Assembly: GCF_000981765.1 (NCBI RefSeq)
Contig: NZ_CP010975.1
Location: 186,001-250,000, forward strand
Source of the DNA: Kangiella geojedonensis
Lineage (GTDB): Bacteria > Pseudomonadota > Gammaproteobacteria > Enterobacterales > Kangiellaceae
Length of the DNA: 64,000 nucleotides
Reading direction: 5' to 3'
The notes beneath the pieces were generated by a model, which was not told the origin of the DNA, made no database searches, and saw nothing but the letters and a program-made list of their open reading frames with translations. Below are positions 51,385 to 60,446 of the stretch, one piece after another. Within the stretch, counting starts at the first letter, position 1; every line of letters begins with the position of its first letter. The translations under genes were made by a program, and so were the position numbers.

Positions 51385-53211
51385 TTAAACAATTCGCACA
51401 GCGCCTTTGTCGGCACTCAAGGCATGCTTAGCATAGACTCTTAAGGACGTAGACAAACGCCTGTTACGTGACTTGGGTTGCCAGCCTTTCTCAGATTGTT
51501 TCTGTCGACGACAATCAAGCTCTTGTTGCTCAACCTTTAGTTCGAGCAAACGGTTTGGAATATCGATGTGAATAGTGTCACCGTCTTCAACTAGGCCGAT
51601 CATTCCTTCGCTAGCCGCTTCTGGAGACACATGACCAATCGATAAACCAGAGGTGCCACCTGAAAAACGTCCGTCGGTAATTAGCGCACAATCTTGGTCT
51701 AGACCTTTTGATTTTAGATAGCTCGTTGGGTACAACATTTCTTGCATCCCAGGGCCACCTGACGGTCCTTCGTAGCGAATAATGACAGCATCACCTTTTT
51801 CTATGGTGTTACTTAAGATAGCTTCAACGGCACTGTCTTGGCTTTCAAACACACGAGCTCGCCCTGTAAAGGTTAATAGCCGATTCGGAACGGCGGCAGT
51901 TTTAATGATGCTACCGTTAGGTGCAAGGTTGCCATAGAGCACAGCAAGCCCGCCGTCTTTGCTGTAAGCATTGTCAATATTACGAACACAGCCACCTTCA
52001 CGGTCGGTATCTAGCGAGTCGTAAAGGCAGCTCTGACTGAAGGCTTGTTGAGTTGGAATACCGGCAGGCCCAGCTCGATACAGTTTTTTGATCGAGTCTT
52101 TGTTTGTCGTCATGACATCCCATTCATCAATTACCTTACCAAGCGATTTTTGTAGTACCGTCGGTTGATTAAGGTTTAGTAAGTTGCCTCGTTTGAGTTC
52201 GCCTAAAATAGCCATAACGCCGCCAGCACGATGTACGTCCTCCATATGATAATCCTTTGTTGCTGGTGCTACTTTGCATAAGTTAGGAACTTGTCGTGAT
52301 AAGCGATCAATATCTTGCATGGAAAAATCAATGTCGCCTTCGTATGCTGCCGCAAGAAGGTGCAATACGGTGTTGGTTGAACCGCCCATGGCAATATCCA
52401 AACTCATGGCGTTCAAAAACGATTTTCGATTAGCAATGTTACGCGGAAGTACTGATGTATCATTGCCTTGGTAGTAGCTTTTGCATAACTCAACGATCTG
52501 GCGGCCAGCTTTCAAAAACAGCTGCTCACGCGCCGAGTGTGTTGCGAGTAGCGAGCCATTACCTGGTAAAGCAAGTCCGAGTGCTTCGGTGAGGCAGTTC
52601 ATGGAGTTTGCAGTAAACATTCCTGAGCATGAGCCACAAGTTGGGCAAGCGCTGCGTTCAACTTGTTCACTCTCCTCGTCGCTTATTGAATCGTCTGCGG
52701 CAGCAACCATAGCGTCCACTAAATCGAGCTTGATTAATTGATCTGACAGTTTGGTTTTGCCAGCTTCCATCGGCCCGCCAGAAACAAAGATCGCAGGTAT
52801 GTTAAGGCGCATTGCCGCTAGTAACATGCCAGGGGTGATCTTGTCACAGTTAGAAATGCACACCAGAGCATCGGCGCAGTGAGCATTAGCCATATACTCC
52901 ACAGAGTCCGCAATGATTTCGCGCGATGGTAGCGAATACAGCATACCGTCATGCCCCATGGCGATGCCATCATCAACGGCAATGGTATTAAACTCTTTAG
53001 CAATACCACCGGCTTTTTCAATTTCACGTGCTACTAATTGTCCCATGTCTTTTAAGTGGACATGCCCCGGTACAAACTGAGTAAATGAATTACAGACAGC
53101 GATGATCGGCTTGCCAAAATCATTATCCTTGACGCCGGTTGCGCGCCATAGGGCACGAGCCCCAGCCATATTTCGGCCATGGGTCGATGTTTTCGAGCGG
53201 TAATCAGGCAT
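51385..53211 (-). CDS. ilvD: Dihydroxy-acid dehydratase
   Basis: A 608-residue iron-sulfur enzyme, the third common step of isoleucine and valine synthesis. Start ATG 53211 ([20 protein letters not shown]) matches the family; the open frame extends 48 codons upstream into ilvE without similarity. Cluster motifs: [25 protein letters not shown] and [19 protein letters not shown]. It overlaps ilvE by 8 bases and is the last gene of the operon. Confidence 0.97.
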
Positions 53212-54154
53212 GACTTTTTTCCTCAACAGCATGGACCCTTTCCAACCAACCTTGTTCATCAGGCGTAGTACCCTTAAACAGACCAAAAAACGCTTGCTGT
53301 AATTTCTCCGTGATTGGACCGCGAGAACCTGAACCAACCGGCAGATCATCAACACTTTTTATCGGCACAACTTCCGCCGCAGTTCCAGTCATAAAGGCTT
53401 CATCCGCAAGGTAAAGTGCTTCGCGTGTCATGTTCTGCTCAAGCACATCGTAGCCCATTTGACGAGCCAGTTGGATGATGGTGTCGCGTGTGATACCCGG
53501 CAAAATTGAGGCGGTAAAAGGTGGCGTATACAAAGTATTGTTTTTTACCACAAACACATTCTCGCCAGAGCCTTCGGAGATATAGCCGTTAACATCTAGC
53601 GCAATGCCTTCCACGTAGCCTTTGCGGGTCGCTTCTTCGACAATAAGTTGCGAAGACAAGTAGTTGCCTCCAGCCTTAGCCGCCGCTGGAATGGTATTCG
53701 GCGCCACACGATTCCAGGACGATATACACACGTCTACGCCATTTTCGATTGAGTCATTGCCAAGGTATGAGTCCCATGGAAACGATGCAATCGAGACTTC
53801 AACGGGGTTCTGGCTAGGGTTAACGCCGATGGAGCCATAACCAAAAAAAGCGACAGGACGAAGATAAGCATTACGCAAATTATTCTTGCTAACGACTTCA
53901 TGGCAGGCCGAGAGTAATTCATTAAAAGAATAGGGAATACTCATGCGATAAATTTTAGCTGAAAGATATAAGCGCTCTATATGCTCACGAAGTCTGAAGA
54001 AAGCAGGCACTTTACTGGTTTCGTAGCAGCGGATGCCTTCAAAAACCGATGAACCATAGTGGAGAGCATGAGTCAGTACATGAACTTGCGCGTCTTGCCA
54101 AGGTATTGTCTCGCCATTGAACCAAATGTATTTGGGTGGATTAAGCGTTGCCAT
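53204..54154 (-). CDS. ilvE: Branched-chain amino acid aminotransferase
   Basis: A 316-residue class IV (fold type IV) PLP aminotransferase for the last step of Ile, Val and Leu synthesis. It shows [33 protein letters not shown], the PLP lysine in AAKAGGNYL, and [12 protein letters not shown] with [15 protein letters not shown] ribosome site. Overlaps cimA by 14 bases and ilvD by 8. Confidence 0.96.
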
Positions 54155-55808
54155 TGTGTGAAACCTCGTGGTGAAAATTTAATGAGTGGTGCTTCGGGAC
54201 TGTTGTTTGTTTGCCCTCAGTAAAATCGCTAAATTTAATTAAAAATAATTGATAGCTGTCGATTAAAGCCTGTGCGCTAGCTTTAAGGATGTTGTCTGAA
54301 CAACCGATGGTCGCCCAGCGTTCTTGCTTATACCCTGACTGAAGCCATACCCGTGTGGTTGCTGCGGAGGCTTTCTCAGGATCTAAGATGGAGACCTTAT
54401 AGTCAGTCAGTTGCATATCTCTGACCTGCGGAAAAAAACTGGTGAGGGCCTTTTTTAGCGCCAAATTCAAAGCGTCTACAGGGCCTGATGCCTCTTCAAC
54501 CACATGTGCAAACTTATTTTTTACGCGCACCTTAACGGTTGCTGTGCACAGTTCCGAATTATGCGGAGAGGATATATTCAGATCATTCACATTGCTCTGA
54601 ATATTAAGCACAGTGAAGTGTGGCTGGTAAGACTCATCCTGTTTACGTACTAACATTTCAAACGAGCCAGGCGCGTTTTCCAAGGTCAGGCCATTTTTTT
54701 CTAGAGACTTAATGCTTTCGAGAACTTGGTCAAAGTTTCGCGATACATCCAACCCCAGCTTTTTAGCTTGCAGTTGTACATTGGACTTTCCTGATAATTC
54801 AGAAATCGTAATGTCGCGTTGATTACCGACGAGCGCAGGGTCAATGTGCTCATAGGTTTTACTGGCTTTCGCAATAGCGGCGACGTGTATCCCTCCTTTA
54901 TGGCTAAAGGCATTGTTACCAACATATGCAGCGTCAGCCTTAAGCGGCATGTTGGCAACGTCTGCCACTTGCTTTGATAGCGTGGACAAATGTGAAGCCT
55001 TTACGTTTGAATTAACGGCATACGCCTGATTAAACGTAGGCTTCAAAAGTAACGTTCCAAGAAGTGATATCAAGTTAGCATTACCGCAACGTTCGCCATA
55101 ACCATTAACAGTGCCCTGGATCAAGGTAACACCCGACTTGATTGAAGCAAGGCTATTTGCGACCGCTAATTCACAATCGTTATGGCAGTGGATACCCAAG
55201 GAAAGCTGTGGGAATTTAGCGTGAACTTTCGACACTATCGAAGTGATGTCGCTAGGCATGGTGCCACCATTCGTGTCGCATAGCGTGACATTATCAACTC
55301 CCGCTTCGATAGCAGCTTCAAGACATTGATAGGCGTAGTCTGGACTGTCTTTAAAGCCATCAAAAAAATGTTCCGCGTCTAAAACCACTTCACGATTATG
55401 CGACTTAAAGAAGGCCACGCTGTCGAAAATCATGCTTAAATTTTCTTTTAGGTCAGTACGCAAAACGGTTTCAACATGATACTGCCAAAATTTACTGACT
55501 AGAGCCACTACAGGAGTATTTGCACTCAATAAGGACTGTATTTGTGCATCTTGTTCGACAGTTGTTAAAGGCTTTCGGGTCGCACCGAACGCCACCAGTT
55601 TGGCGTGCTGCAAACCTAAATTTTTTGCATGGCGAAAATAGGCCTCGTCTTTTGGGTTGGAACCCGGCCAGCCTCCTTCAATATAATCCATGCCAAAATC
55701 ATCCAGCAGTTGCGTGATTTTTAATTTATCTTGCAACGAAAAACTGATCCCTTTGTATTGGGCGCCATCTCTTAAAGTGGTGTCGTAAAGAAATAATTGC
55801 TTACTCAT
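54141..55808 (-). CDS. cimA: (R)-citramalate synthase
   Basis: A 555-residue enzyme of the isopropylmalate/homocitrate synthase superfamily. The TIM-barrel starts DTTLRDGAQYKGISFS (9-24); metal ligands lie in LGIHCHNDCELAVANS and GTVNGYGERCGNANL; a C-terminal LeuA-type dimer domain follows (about 415-530). The motif order YIEGGWPGSNPKD and FKDSPDYAYQCLEAA are characteristic of the citramalate synthase (TIGR00977-type) group rather than LeuA. It condenses pyruvate with acetyl-CoA. It occupies the operon where threonine deaminase (ilvA) would usually be, so isoleucine probably comes from pyruvate. Confidence 0.9.
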   Translation of the reverse strand: MSKQLFLYDTTLRDGAQYKGISFSLQDKLKITQLLDDFGMDYIEGGWPGSNPKDEAYFRHAKNLGLQHAKLVAFGATRKPLTTVEQDAQIQSLLSANTPVVALVSKFWQYHVETVLRTDLKENLSMIFDSVAFFKSHNREVVLDAEHFFDGFKDSPDYAYQCLEAAIEAGVDNVTLCDTNGGTMPSDITSIVSKVHAKFPQLSLGIHCHNDCELAVANSLASIKSGVTLIQGTVNGYGERCGNANLISLLGTLLLKPTFNQAYAVNSNVKASHLSTLSKQVADVANMPLKADAAYVGNNAFSHKGGIHVAAIAKASKTYEHIDPALVGNQRDITISELSGKSNVQLQAKKLGLDVSRNFDQVLESIKSLEKNGLTLENAPGSFEMLVRKQDESYQPHFTVLNIQSNVNDLNISSPHNSELCTATVKVRVKNKFAHVVEEASGPVDALNLALKKALTSFFPQVRDMQLTDYKVSILDPEKASAATTRVWLQSGYKQERWATIGCSDNILKASAQALIDSYQLFLIKFSDFTEGKQTTVPKHHSLNFHHEVSHNGNA

Positions 55809-56067
55809 TGCCTAAACAACTCCTCAGTCGAGATGGTTTGGTATGATGAACTTCCACCACATCAACTAATTTATGTAATTGGTGATAAAGGTTGTCGGCA
55901 GAACGTTCGCTACTTAACTGTAGGGTGACGCTCATGCCATTTTCTAAACACTCTTCGCGTGCCAAGCAGTAATTAACGTTAAAACCACGATGACGAACCA
56001 AGCGCAGAATACGTTCTAAACTGCCTGCTGATTGTCGAACGATAATTTTAAAAGTGCTGGTACTCAT
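55801..56067 (-). CDS. ilvM: Acetolactate synthase small subunit (ACT domain)
   Basis: An 88-residue regulatory subunit with one ACT domain (STSTFKIIVRQSAGSLERIL... NGMSVTLQLSSERSADNLYH). The short length is that of IlvM rather than IlvH/IlvN. Overlaps ilvG by 4 bases and cimA by 8, so it is translated together with its catalytic partner. Confidence 0.92.
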   Translation of the reverse strand: MSTSTFKIIVRQSAGSLERILRLVRHRGFNVNYCLAREECLENGMSVTLQLSSERSADNLYHQLHKLVDVVEVHHTKPSRLRSCLGNE

Positions 56068-57818
56068 TGTGTGGCCTCCTCAGGTCGTTTGTGCTGGCTA
56101 CTATCTGGAGCCGCCTTAGTTTTATTAGGGTTGTTTTCGATGTAATCCGAGTTACTTTTGCCAGGTGGTACAAGCGGCCAGACGTTATCATCCGGATCGA
56201 TAGACACGTGTAGCAAATAGCTCTCGTCGCTTGCTAAAAATTCATCAAGAGCAGAATCAACTTGTGATGATTGATTGATGCTATGGCTGCGGACGCCAAA
56301 GGCATGGGCAATCTCAACAAAGTCAGGGTTGTCAGAAAGATCGACTTCACTAAACCGTTGTTCGAAGAATAGGTTTTGCCATTGACGAACCATGCCCAGT
56401 CGTTGGTTGTCGAGAAGCAAAATCTTCACCGCGATACCGTAACGTTTCAGCGTGGCGAGTTCTTGAATGTTCATCATGATAGAGCCGTCGCCAGAGACTG
56501 TAATAACGGTGTGATCAGGGTGAGCAAACTTGGCCCCTAGTGCTGCAGGCAAGCCATAGCCCATGGCGCCTAAACCACCGCTACTCAGGTGCTGACTACT
56601 GGCGTTGAACTGCATATGTTGTGCAACCCACATCTGATGCTGACCGACATCACAAGTAACAATCGCTTGTTGTTGCAAACAACGATCCGATAACTTTTTT
56701 AATAATGCGGGGGCGTAAATACCGCTAAATGGAGCGTCGTAGCGGAACCCCAGCTCTTTTTTATTGTGCAGACAACGATAGCGCCACTCATGAGCCATTT
56801 GGTGCTTGAAACGATTGCTTAATGAGGTCATGAGTTCGGTCAGTATGCTATTCATATCGCCGATCAGACTAAGGTCGGCAAGGCGTAGCTTGCTGATCTC
56901 TGCGCGATCGCAATCGATATGAATGACTTTGGCGTGTGGTGCAAACTGCTTTAAGTCGCCTGTTGCGCGATCATCAAGACGAGCGCCTGCTACTAACAAT
57001 AGATCACATTCTTGTACCGCTATGTTAGCGGCTTTGGTACCGTGCATTCCAAGCATACCCAGGTTATATACGTGGGTGCTTGGCAACGCCCCAATACCTT
57101 TTAGCGTAGTGACAGTAGGTACTTTGAACTGATCAACAAAAGATGTCAGTAGCTCTGAAGCTTTAGCTAAGCCAACGCCACCCCCCGCGTAAACCAAGGG
57201 CTTTCTACTGGTTGACAATAACTCAGTAGCCAGCTGTAAAGACTCTCCGCCTGATTGTTGCGAAGTGGCTGACAGTGCATTTGGTCGCAAATCATCACAA
57301 AAAGCTAAGGTTGTCGCGGGCATTGGAGCCATTTGAACATCTTTAGCGATATCAATCAGAACGGGGCCTGGACGACCGCTTTGAGCCAACTGGATTGCCT
57401 CGTTCAGCATACGAGGCAATTCCTCAATATGAGTCACCAGGTAGCTGTGTTTTACAACTGATAGCGACATACCATAAGTATCGATTTCCTGAAAAGCATC
57501 GGTGCCAATCAGGTTAGAAGCGACTTGTCCGGTGATCGCTAGAAGCGGCACCGAGTCCATATGAGCATTAGCAATACCAGTGATCAGGTTAGTTGCCCCT
57601 GGTCCTGAAGTGGCAATACACACGCCCAGTCTGCCACTAGAGCGAGCATAACCATCGGCGGCAAATACGGCGCCTTGCTCATGACGACATAACACATGTT
57701 TTACACCGCTGCCGAGCAAAGCATCGTACACCGGCATGATGGCGCCACCGGGATAGCCAAATACCGTGTCAACTTGATGATCTTTTAAGGTCTTTATTAA
57801 ATAGTCTGCACCACGCAT
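56064..57818 (-). CDS. ilvG: Acetolactate synthase large subunit
   Basis: A 584-residue thiamine-diphosphate enzyme making acetolactate and acetohydroxybutyrate. Start ATG 57818 (MRGADYLIKTLKDHQVDTVF) follows AGGTGA; an upstream ATG at 57851 overlaps ilvC and is less likely. Motifs: GYPGGAIMPVYDAL, the catalytic Glu in LCRHEQGAVFAADGYAR, FAD region, and the ThDP motif VSGDGSIMMNIQEL. Pairing with IlvM suggests the valine-resistant isozyme II type. Confidence 0.96.
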   Translation of the reverse strand: MRGADYLIKTLKDHQVDTVFGYPGGAIMPVYDALLGSGVKHVLCRHEQGAVFAADGYARSSGRLGVCIATSGPGATNLITGIANAHMDSVPLLAITGQVASNLIGTDAFQEIDTYGMSLSVVKHSYLVTHIEELPRMLNEAIQLAQSGRPGPVLIDIAKDVQMAPMPATTLAFCDDLRPNALSATSQQSGGESLQLATELLSTSRKPLVYAGGGVGLAKASELLTSFVDQFKVPTVTTLKGIGALPSTHVYNLGMLGMHGTKAANIAVQECDLLLVAGARLDDRATGDLKQFAPHAKVIHIDCDRAEISKLRLADLSLIGDMNSILTELMTSLSNRFKHQMAHEWRYRCLHNKKELGFRYDAPFSGIYAPALLKKLSDRCLQQQAIVTCDVGQHQMWVAQHMQFNASSQHLSSGGLGAMGYGLPAALGAKFAHPDHTVITVSGDGSIMMNIQELATLKRYGIAVKILLLDNQRLGMVRQWQNLFFEQRFSEVDLSDNPDFVEIAHAFGVRSHSINQSSQVDSALDEFLASDESYLLHVSIDPDDNVWPLVPPGKSNSDYIENNPNKTKAAPDSSQHKRPEEATQ

Positions 57819-57831
57819 AAGTTCACCTGTT

Positions 57832-58848
57832 TTAGTTGATGGTTTGATCAACCAAGGGTTTTTTCTTGATCCAAGGCATCATGCCGCGCAGCTTTGCACC
57901 GACAACTTCAATCTCGTGTTCTGAGTGAGAGTGGCGTAATTTATGCAACGTTTGGTAATCGTTACGACAATCGTCGACGTACTCTTTGGCGAATTGTCCA
58001 CTTTGGATTTCCGACAAAATGGCCTTCATGGATGCTTTCGTTTCATCCGTCACTAAGCGGTTGCCGCGTGTTAGATCGCCATACTCTGCGGTATTAGAAA
58101 TGGAGTAACGCATGGTGTTGATGCCGCCTTCGTACATTAAATCGACGATCAGTTTTAACTCATGCAAACATTCGAAGTAGGCCATCTCTGGCGAGTAACC
58201 GGCTTCAACTAAGGTTTCAAATCCGGCTTGAACCAGTGCCGCCGTGCCACCACAGAGGACGGCTTGCTCGCCAAACAAGTCTGTTTCGGTTTCTTCTTTA
58301 AAACTGGTTTCGATCACACCTGCACGACCACCACCAATAGCACTGGCATAGGCATAGGCTAATTCTTTGGTATTACCGGTAACGTCTTGATGAACAGCAA
58401 CCAAGCAAGGGACGCCACTTCCTTCTGTGTAAGTCGAGCGTACTGTGTGGCCCGGACCTTTGGGCGCAACCATAAAAACGTTGATGTCTTCACGAGGGGA
58501 GATTTGGTCGAAGTGGATATTGAAGCCATGGGCGAATCCCAAGCTGGCTCCCGGCTTTAGATGTGGCTCTAGGTACTGGGTATAAACTTCCGGTTGGTTT
58601 TCATCCGGCAGTAACATCATCACCAAGTCTGCATCTTTTATTGCTTCCTCAAGCTCAGCGCCAGGCATATTGCTTCGCTTCAATTTTTCGAAAGTCGAAG
58701 AACCTTTGCGTAGAGCTACGGTAACGTCGAAGCCACTGTCTTTGAGGTTATTGGAATGCGCATAACCTTGCGAACCATAGCCTAAAACTACCAGCTTCTT
58801 GTTTTTTAGCGAGTCCGTGTTGATGTCTGTGTCGTATGTTACTTTCAT
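57832..58848 (-). CDS. ilvC: Ketol-acid reductoisomerase
   Basis: A 338-residue class I (short) NADPH-dependent enzyme, second common step of Ile/Val synthesis. [20 protein letters not shown] gives the nucleotide site; metal ligands lie in [19 protein letters not shown] and [19 protein letters not shown]. First structural gene of the operon, with GGAG before the ATG and two attenuators upstream. In E. coli ilvC is a separate gene controlled by IlvY, so placement here is different. Confidence 0.97.
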
Positions 58849-58900: not shown

Positions 58901-58935
58901 AAAAAAAAGCCCCCGGACTTTTCAGTGCGGGGGCT
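58901..58935 (-). terminator. ilv attenuator terminator, gene-proximal copy
   Basis: On the minus strand AGCCCCCG (58935-58928) pairs with CGGGGGCT (58915-58908), followed by T8. Its first arm is also complementary to CGGGGGCG (58976-58969) inside the last codons of the leader peptide, giving the alternative antiterminator expected for attenuation. Confidence 0.92.
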
Positions 58936-58961
58936 GCGGTTGTTAGTTGATAATTCTTAGC

Positions 58962-59039
58962 TCAATAACGCCCCCGTTGCGGTAATAAAATCACCACAAT
59001 AATTAAGACGACGATAATGATTGAGTTTAGTAAGTTCAT
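58962..59039 (-). CDS. ilv operon leader peptide, gene-proximal copy
   Basis: A 25-residue peptide, too short for ordinary gene calls. After MNLLNS it has a run of Ile, Val and Leu (SIIIVVLIIVVILL, residues 6-19) and ends in PQRGRY. Fourteen of 25 residues are the amino acids made by the downstream operon. A ribosome starved for them would stall and leave the CGGGGGCG segment free to block the terminator; a ribosome reaching the stop would cover it. The ribosome site is weak. Confidence 0.88.
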   Translation of the reverse strand: MNLLNSIIIVVLIIVVILLPQRGRY

Positions 59040-59139
59040 AATCTAAAGAAGCTACTCAAAATTGCTGCACTTATTTATGCTTCGCTGCTTTTGAGTTTGC
59101 GTCTTACCTCCAATCTGTTAAATGTACTTTAAGTTAATC

Positions 59140-59174
59140 AAAAAAAAGCCCCCGGACTTTTCAGTTCGAGGGCT
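59140..59174 (-). terminator. ilv attenuator terminator, distal copy
   Basis: On the minus strand AGCCCTCGAAC (59174-59164) pairs with GTCCGGGGGCT (59157-59147) with one mismatch and one G-T pair, followed by T8. The 10-base loop region TGAAAA is shared with the proximal copy. Its first arm pairs with GAGGGC in the distal leader-peptide codons. Confidence 0.88.
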
Positions 59175-59198
59175 TCGTTATTCGTTGTGTTTCTTAAC

Positions 59199-59291
59199 TC
59201 ACACGCGCCCTCGTTGCGGTAATAAAATCACCACAATCACGTTAATCACAATGAAGCTCACCGAGAGCATGTTAAGGGCTTGTTTCAACAT
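59199..59291 (-). CDS. ilv operon leader peptide, distal copy
   Basis: A 30-residue peptide that is a diverged duplicate of the proximal leader. It starts MLKQALNMLSVSF, then IVINVIVVILL and PQRGRV; VVILLPQRGR is identical in both copies. It is followed by its own terminator at 59140-59174, so a transcript must pass two attenuators in series before ilvC. Start could also be the internal ATG (residue 8). The remaining gap 59292-59460 should hold the promoter, which I could not place with confidence; between the copies lies a hairpin ACTCAAAA/TTTTGAGT (59054-59096). Confidence 0.85.
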   Translation of the reverse strand: MLKQALNMLSVSFIVINVIVVILLPQRGRV

Positions 59292-59460
59292 AAAAGTATC
59301 TTACGTTAGGTTCCAAATGTTCGTTAATTTTATGCTAAGCGCAACCGAATATTCATCGTTACGTTCAGCATTTGAATCGAGGTTAACACAGTCTTTGACC
59401 TTTGCAAATATATTTTAGATATTTTTGATCTGGTCAGATAAGCTGTCATAACCAAAAGTT

Positions 59461-60282
59461 CTAAAGGCTTGTGTCGTGAGTAACTGCTAACTTCGTGACT
59501 TCCTGAGGAATATAGTGTTGCCGTAACTCATGCCAGTTTAATATCGTCAGGTTGCCTTCGAAATCTTCTGCAAGTGCTGTGCAGCTCTCGACCCAGTCAC
59601 CATCGTTATAATACTGAATGCCGTGAAACTCCCGCATTTCAGCATGATGGATGTGCCCACAAACGATACCATCGGCTTGCTGCTTCTTGGCGTGTTCAGA
59701 AGCAATCTCCTCAAACTGAGAAATGTAACTGACCGCGTTTTTCACTTTCATTTTAAGGTGCGCAGACAGCGACCAATACCCTTTGCCGAATTTCTGGCGA
59801 AACTTATTAATAGGGCGGTTGAGTTTTAGCAGAAACTCATAGAGGTGATCACCGATAGTGGCTAACCACGGAGTAAAGCGCATGACGTTATCGAAAATAT
59901 CACCATGCAGCACCAGCAGTCGTTTGCCTTTCGCGGTGATATGCATATCGTCTTCTAGTATTTTAACACTGCCCAGTGACATGGTGGCAAAGTCACGAAT
60001 TAAAGAATCGTGGTTGCCAGGGATAAATATCACATCGCACCCTTTGCGCGCTTTACGCAGGATTTTTTGTACCACATCATTGTGTTCTTGTGGCCAATAC
60101 CAGCGGTTCTTTAAGCGCCAGCAATCAATAATATCACCGACAAGGTAGAGCTTATCGGATTCAATATGTTTTAGAAATTCGAGAAGAAGTTTTGCCTGAC
60201 AGCCTTTGCTTCCTAGGTGTGTGTCTGAGATCCAGATGGTGCGAAAGTGTGTTTTATTCTTATGGGTAGACGGCAGGGTCAT
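59461..60282 (-). CDS. LpxH-like metallophosphoesterase (UDP-2,3-diacylglucosamine diphosphatase family)
   Basis: A 273-residue calcineurin-type phosphoesterase. Start ATG 60282 follows GAGGTAAG; an upstream frame of 41 codons has no similarity. Metal-binding motifs are complete: D20-x-H22 (ISDTHLG), GD at 49-50 (LVGDIIDCW), GNHD at 89-92, a HGD, and GHIHHAEM. This matches the UDP-2,3-diacylglucosamine hydrolase-like group (COG2908), but it is longer than classical LpxH and could be a paralogue with another substrate. Divergent from an outer-membrane barrel gene. Confidence 0.82.
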   Translation of the reverse strand: MTLPSTHKNKTHFRTIWISDTHLGSKGCQAKLLLEFLKHIESDKLYLVGDIIDCWRLKNRWYWPQEHNDVVQKILRKARKGCDVIFIPGNHDSLIRDFATMSLGSVKILEDDMHITAKGKRLLVLHGDIFDNVMRFTPWLATIGDHLYEFLLKLNRPINKFRQKFGKGYWSLSAHLKMKVKNAVSYISQFEEIASEHAKKQQADGIVCGHIHHAEMREFHGIQYYNDGDWVESCTALAEDFEGNLTILNWHELRQHYIPQEVTKLAVTHDTSL

Positions 60283-60446
60283 TTGTCTTACCTCATCAGT
60301 GAGTTGTGGTAACTTTAACAAGCTAATATGACTGTTATGTGACCGAGATCCTACATTTAGATGTAACTGCAGGACTATGTGACGGTTATTTGGGAAAATA
60401 AACAATATACATTATGATGTAATCGAACAATAACGATAAGGAACCT

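Follow-up and report, generated by a model that had tools for sequence, protein, structure and literature searches.

Two tandem leader-peptide attenuator modules of the ilvL kind upstream of the ilvC operon in Kangiella, predicted to act in series

The ilvGMEDA (ilvL) attenuator of Enterobacterales resembles the modules described here from Kangiella in having an Ile/Val/Leu-rich leader peptide and a near-identical terminator, which reads CCCCCGCACCGAAAGGTCCGGGGG-T8 in E. coli ilvL and CCCCCGCACTGAAAAGTCCGGGGG in the proximal copy of the window (the whole 64-kb stretch of DNA, from the marine bacterium Kangiella geojedonensis, that was analysed). Relative to E. coli ilvL (Rfam RF02744), Kangiella has two copies, these precede ilvC, and the hairpin within the control codons (hairpin P) and the antiterminator arm (region 2) differ in sequence. 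Leader-peptide attenuators have also been described before ilvG, ilvI and leuA in Shewanella (PMC2659441), in a report whose main text does not contain the word “tandem”, and the sensitivity of single attenuators is treated in PMC1183508. Two leader open reading frames with serial attenuation on one mRNA are likewise described for Salmonella mgtCBR (PMC3641672), but there the two signals are unlike (ATP and proline) and the stem-loops do not resemble intrinsic terminators, whereas the Kangiella modules are homologous, share their signals and end in intrinsic terminators. Tandem TPP riboswitches (PMC9481103), presented as a route to more digital RNA switches, likewise make serial homologous terminator decisions on one signal with a steeper response, although they are ligand-binding aptamers rather than translated leader peptides and the independence of the two decisions is something that we infer for Kangiella. 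In the rimP leader (PMC2965389), a second terminator stands in tandem before one gene, as in Kangiella, and the passage on that leader describes no leader peptide. Among the papers listed in searches of the open PMC literature, judged by titles and the beginnings of abstracts and with subscription journals mostly outside their reach, none described homologous leader-peptide attenuators arranged in tandem ahead of an operon for amino acids. The Kangiella locus would be the tandem-riboswitch design carried over to translated leader peptides; it is conserved in the genus, and single-copy relatives exist for comparison. With it one can test whether serial attenuators multiply, and the two copies form a natural pair in which the contribution of attenuation to basal level and steepness can be measured.

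On the minus strand upstream of ilvC, sequence and folding in the window place two homologous modules between an LpxH-like phosphoesterase gene (59461-60405, minus strand, NCBIfam matches below cutoff) and ilvC (58848-57832). The original prediction, made from the letters of this DNA, had put two leader-peptide attenuators at 58901..59291, and its coordinates and sequence proved correct, including the T8 run of each copy. In each module, all on the minus strand, a leader peptide rich in Ile and Val has a hairpin among its control codons and then a G-rich stretch complementary to arm 3 of the terminator that follows, which carries U8. In the distal copy, the leader peptide open reading frame (59199..59291, 30 aa, MLKQALNMLSVSFIVINVIVVILLPQRGRV), identified from the reading frame and genus comparison, contains hairpin P by folding (59216..59234, GUGGUGAU-UUU-AUUACCGC) and region 2, the antiterminator 5' arm CGAGGGC, by pairing analysis (59207..59213); a terminator hairpin supported by RNAfold and covariation (59147..59174; arm 3, 59173-59167; arm 4, 59154-59148) and the U8 run (59140..59147) follow. 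A 100-nt spacer (59040..59139), in which promoter scan and motif search found no promoter motif, separates this copy from the proximal one, whose corresponding features, identified in the same ways, are the leader peptide (58962..59039, 25 aa, MNLLNSIIIVVLIIVVILLPQRGRY), hairpin P (58979..58997), region 2 with the sequence CGGGGGC (58970..58976), the terminator hairpin (58908..58935; arm 3, 58934-58928; arm 4, 58915-58909) and the U8 run (58901..58908).

Both leader peptides carry VVILLPQRGR at the C-terminus followed by one more residue. Hairpin P has the same sequence in both modules and is formed by the last control codons, region 2 lies in the final codons, and both terminators follow the pattern AGCCC(C/U)CG-n-ACU-GAAA-AGU-C-CGGGGGCU with U8 behind it. 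These three elements are near-identical between the copies, and it is the stretch from stop codon to arm 3 and the N termini of the leaders that differ. As had been predicted, the last leader codons are complementary to the first terminator arm, with 7 bp both in the distal copy (CGAGGGC/GCCCTCG) and in the proximal one (CGGGGGC/GCCCCCG), and the one inter-copy difference, G->A with C->T, is compensated on both antiterminator sides, which agrees with the earlier reading that the alternative pairing was kept after duplication. The same difference leaves a G.U pair in the distal terminator because arm 4 is unchanged. By eye, no obvious ribosome-binding site adjoins the ATG of either window leader. 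Within the spacer (59040-59139), the arms ACTCAAAA...TTTTGAGT were noticed by eye, and the G019 spacer exceeds that of the window by 83 nt; a mobile repeat between the copies was rejected, as a spacer query (59040-59135, 96 nt) matched only itself genome-wide.

The two-module arrangement is not a chance one. Nine short open reading frames rich in Ile, Leu or Val occur in the 64-kb window and only these two have a stable hairpin and T-run 3' of them, while a Markov-1 control of 20 sequences of 64 kb yielded no such frame with hairpin and T-run. A simple terminator scan, whose rule takes loops of 3-8 and disallows internal mismatches, listed neither of the two minus-strand terminators; RNAfold recovers both.

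Conservation of the RNA structure was assessed in an alignment of 19 rows, comprising 18 Kangiella copies and the single copy of G033. Leader, hairpin P, region 2, terminator and a T-run of 5-9 T are present in all 18 Kangiella copies, with terminator stabilities of -16.7 to -19.7 kcal/mol. In the terminator, 99.5% of cells are paired over the 19 rows and three pairs show two-sided changes, above all shuffles. For the antiterminator (2:3), 90.2% of cells are paired as compared with 35-62.4% when the arms are slid, and a pairing of at least 5 bp is available in 19 of 19 rows; its two-sided change is confined to one pair in five distal copies, probably a single event common to five close relatives, and covariation here is not above shuffles, of which 419 of 500 reach the count of two-sided pairs and 500 of 500 that of further pair types. 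Hairpin P, with 95.3% of cells paired and one two-sided change that 60 of 500 shuffles reach, is likewise not clearly above its control; in G033, a hairpin forms at this position from another sequence. The 2:3 runs are not uniform, as the distal copies of G015, G009 and G013 have runs of four instead of five in both region 2 and arm 3, and in the proximal copy of G015 the two runs are unequal (four and five). Shuffled arm-3 controls for 2:3 were weak in some copies (20 of 300 in the window proximal copy, 35 of 300 in the G009 distal copy), and in some (G015) region 2 pairs with the bases immediately 3' of it.

When the folded RNA includes arm 4, the terminator has the lowest energy in 18 of 19 copies, the exception being the G009 proximal copy, and antitermination must therefore be kinetic. 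The minimum-energy fold lacks hairpin P in the G003 distal and G015 proximal copies. In the trp attenuator, region 2 can pair either with arm 3 or with arm 1, the latter pairing being a 1:2 protector. Here, hairpin P adjoins region 2 and excludes it, and no upstream arm competing for region 2 was seen in folds of the 2:3 state, which begin at hairpin P. To our knowledge, a 1:2 protector arm is a variant feature that attenuators do not all need.

We consider it probable that these are two complete ribosome-mediated attenuators of the ilvL kind, working in series so that transcripts from one promoter would pass both before reaching ilvC-ilvG-ilvM-cimA-ilvE-ilvD. Slow translation of Ile or Val codons would hold the ribosome short of region 2, leaving this free to pair with arm 3 and block the terminator; once at the stop codon, the ribosome would mask region 2 and let the terminator form, with hairpin P perhaps serving as a pause hairpin. 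An untranslated leader would be expected to read through, since no upstream arm was seen competing for region 2, and in this it should differ from trp. As RNA polymerase would have to pass both decisions, read-through should approximate the product of the two and log gains should add, giving lower basal expression and a steeper, pseudo-cooperative induction by Ile or Val shortage; pseudo-cooperative tandem riboswitches follow this arithmetic (PMC9481103). By this arithmetic, a steeper response with lower basal read-through is the likeliest consequence of having two modules, and a rise of read-through under Ile/Val shortage is the behaviour that the sequence predicts. In a toy race with our own parameters, halving the speed of Ile and Val codons gave a read-through of 0.35 or 0.41 with one module and of 0.14 with the pair, as compared with 0.01 and 0.0001 in the unstarved state. 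Of the proposal that two copies might sharpen or widen the response, sharpening fits these considerations, and widening does not, because serial terminators multiply, so that read-through needs a stall on both leaders (an AND relation) and the response is narrowed.

The leader codons bear directly on which amino acids would be sensed. Assuming a ribosome footprint that reaches 15 nt beyond the first P-site base, region 2 would in all 18 copies be masked by a ribosome that has reached the stop codon, and would be free if the ribosome were held at the earlier Ile/Val-rich codons, as we suppose to happen in Kangiella geojedonensis. We took as effective codons the last 10 whose stall frees region 2, which over nine genomes gives 90 for each copy type. 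The distal leaders have 34 Ile, 33 Val and 8 Leu among these, and the proximal leaders 41 Ile, 38 Val and 10 Leu, so that Ile, Leu and Val together make up 83% and 99%, respectively. Both leaders would thus sense Ile and Val about equally, which speaks against the suggested division of Ile versus Val between them. A two-input AND gate, in which one copy would respond mainly to Ile and the other mainly to Val (or Leu), draws some encouragement from Leu, as the toy race filters out a shortage limited to Leu and the effective codons of the window leaders hold none in the distal and one in the proximal copy; given the near-equal Ile and Val counts in both copies across nine genomes, and a Leu content that is inconsistent among them (three per copy in G013), we regard such divided labour as improbable. 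Most copies use CGG (Arg) and GGG (Gly), codons that are rare in window genes (5% of Arg and 10.9% of Gly codons in 11 window open reading frames), and the window distal copy uses CGA (15.8%). The proximal leader of G013 ends in another frame and yet retains CCGCAACGGGGG. This use of rare codons, together with the retention of CCGCAACGGGGG through a frame change, suggests that the RNA is conserved for itself, beyond the peptide.

Upstream regions in the genus were compared wherever IlvC was found, which was the case in 9 of the 20 genus genomes searched. Two modules lie upstream of ilvC in 9 of 9, with IlvC identities to the window from 97% down to 77% and inter-copy gaps of 16-183 nt. The model used for searching (R1) was built from the 19 rows and matches the genus copies by construction, and the sequences themselves are the evidence for both copies. 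In the remaining 11 genomes, no IlvC match reached E <= 1e-10; two of these assemblies are incomplete (55% and 86%). One of the genus genomes without IlvC (G011) has a single module (L174:2886-2976) before a 99-aa open reading frame, ilvM-like by position, and ilvE, perhaps an operon remnant after gene loss. A weak leader match in G016 (E 0.29) has one internal stop.

The position of promoter-like sequences argues for the order of the modules. A predicted promoter lies 5' of the distal copy, with a -35-like TTGCAA (59402..59407, minus strand) and an extended -10 element, TGTTAACCT (59380..59388, minus strand), whose TGnTAnnnT motif all nine genomes have 5' of the distal leader and none of them has between the two start codons. 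A TTTGCA-like element stands 16 nt ahead of the -10 hexamer of this motif in 9 of 9 genomes; by eye, it is TTTGCA in six and a one-base variant in G017, G018 and G009, and G009 has an additional TGnTAnnnT motif farther upstream. The distance from distal T-run to proximal ATG is 100, 104, 183, 122, 127 and 123 nt in G000, G017, G019, G003, G018 and G006, and only 30, 32 and 16 nt in G015, G009 and G013. A general promoter scan of the window listed four sites, including one on the plus strand, as compared with 1.9 expected; its minus-strand sites lie upstream (59536-59509 and 59449-59421) and over the ilvC start (58874-58847), with none between the copies, and the extended -10 motif was likewise unlisted. 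The match at 58874-58847 (9 of 12) is past both modules and overlaps the ilvC start codon, and a transcript from it would therefore be without that start. As the spacing is short in three genomes and the motif occurs only upstream of the distal copy, the two copies most likely act in series from one upstream promoter. Transcription starting between the copies, which the original prediction had named as the case against its own reading, is unlikely for the same reasons.

These data also bear on whether the proximal copy alone might regulate ilv, with the distal copy being a leftover duplicate or a terminator of read-in from the phosphoesterase gene. That gene is on the same strand and could read into the distal copy, and in eight of the nine genomes its terminator is slightly weaker than the proximal one (-16.7 to -18.2 vs -19.7 kcal/mol), but a leftover should decay, whereas the distal leader, hairpin, region 2 and terminator are intact in every one of the nine genomes down to the most divergent IlvC. 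In addition, the promoter motif is consistently 5' of the distal copy, and in three genomes a proximal-only promoter would fall inside that copy, making this explanation unlikely. A further possibility is that the main output of the distal module is a short terminated RNA, or a peptide, acting in trans; transcripts from the predicted start that stop at its terminator would be about 230 nt long, and a trans role has been reported for a leader peptide, cf. the Sinorhizobium trp leader (PMC7298713). An RNA acting in trans would not need the full antiterminator that the distal copy has, however, and we hold this to be extremely improbable.

Serial action might also be non-independent, if distal arm 4, freed after distal antitermination, were to capture proximal arm 3 in a relay. 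The pairing of distal arm 4 with proximal arm 3 is as strong as that within the proximal terminator itself in 6 of 9 genomes (about -18 kcal/mol), and in five of those six arm 4 still matches proximal arm 3 despite a changed distal arm 3. Such a relay is nevertheless very unlikely, because the cross pair is weaker in the other three genomes (-13 against -18) and the proximal copy would become partly redundant.

Outside the genus, R1 matches 167 of 295 order genomes at E <= 0.01 and 5 of 369 class-sampled genomes at E <= 1e-4, two of the latter five being from the same order. Among the matches listed, to about E 8e-4, neighbouring pairs occur only in the Kangiella genus (eight genomes, G009 not being among them). 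The 67 extra-genus loci examined with their flanks (21 at E <= 0.1, L138-L158; six at E <= 1, L167-L172; 40 at E <= 0.01, L178-L217) have exactly one sense-strand R1 match each and none is doubled, with the limit that 61 of the 67 were chosen by model score and a weak second copy could escape. The last group comprises 40 of the next 42 listed places, leaving out G045:C41 and G072:C10, and one locus ends at a contig edge. Among the loci examined, doubling thus appears confined to Kangiella, and the search for one versus two copies in related genomes that had been proposed at the outset bears out the view that two in series is unusual. IlvC at E <= 1e-90 was found in 18 of 394 order genomes, of which the nine Kangiella genomes have two modules and eight others one (G033, G094, G068, G747, G762, G076, G052 and G095); in these eight, a leader and GAAA-loop terminator stand directly before ilvC of the same class, as in Kangiella except for the copy number. 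In the remaining genome, G061, no module was found, and 24 of 80 distant IlvC loci scanned with R1 gave no match at E <= 1.

As for family assignment, the modules resemble the ilvGMEDA (ilvL) attenuator kind, a kinship indicated by the match of R1 to ilvL of E. coli at 39.6 bits (E 1.5e-7), to which the terminator contributes most, by the near-identical terminator, and by the genes downstream of the 40 further R1 loci, 37 of which precede an acetolactate synthase gene, one ilvE, and two none of five tested operon proteins. There was no R1 match to leuL. At this level R1 is not specific for ilv, as a leader in G013 that by eye is rich in Thr (L173:1213-1300) reaches 37.7 bits; together with its terminator it lies before a gene that by eye resembles an aspartokinase gene, and is a classical thr-type attenuator. 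The Rfam model RF02744 scores the window copies at 17.8 and 17.0 bits and E. coli ilvL at 157.4 against a gathering cutoff of 88, so that the locus holding both window copies (L003) has no RF02744 match at cutoff; at a relaxed threshold, Rfam gave 23 matches, none near its own cutoff, the top score being His_leader with 27.4 bits, seemingly in large part terminator-derived.

The history of the two copies was examined in a tree of 20 rows. Its support is weak, with 11 of 17 inner branches open, and neither the distal nor the proximal copies are monophyletic in it (two changes each). Mean identities are 0.74 among distal copies, 0.79 among proximal copies, 0.71 between the copies within a genome and 0.70 between distal and proximal copies of different genomes; the within-genome value of 0.85 in G006 may reflect gene conversion. 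Because all nine genomes have both copies and the N termini are copy-specific, a single ancestral duplication is favoured over several, though not proven.

Finally, the operon behind the modules fits control by Ile and Val in its products. The order, all on the minus strand, is ilvC-ilvG-ilvM-cimA-ilvE-ilvD: ilvC (57832..58848; ketol-acid reductoisomerase, 338 aa, by NCBIfam), which we take to be of class I; ilvG/ilvB (56064..57851; acetolactate synthase 2 catalytic subunit, NCBIfam NF006524); ilvM (55801..56067; acetolactate synthase 2 small subunit, NCBIfam NF008362, 68.4 bits vs a cutoff of 68); cimA (54141..55808; citramalate synthase, TIGR00977); ilvE (53204..54154; branched-chain transaminase, by protein-family match); and ilvD (51385..53355; dihydroxy-acid dehydratase, matching from residue 49, so that the listed start is probably too early). 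With a citramalate synthase encoded inside the ilv operon, isoleucine is probably made from pyruvate rather than from threonine. Threonine dehydratase is reported to be missing from all Kangiella genomes studied in PMC6000758, where, of five strains, only Kangiella geojedonensis KCTC 23420 has the branched-chain cluster. The shorter form of IlvC occurs in the Kangiella genus and G033, and in other genera of the family with a match, 15 of 16 genomes have a distant, longer-frame form (33-39% identity); the ilv operon may have been acquired separately.
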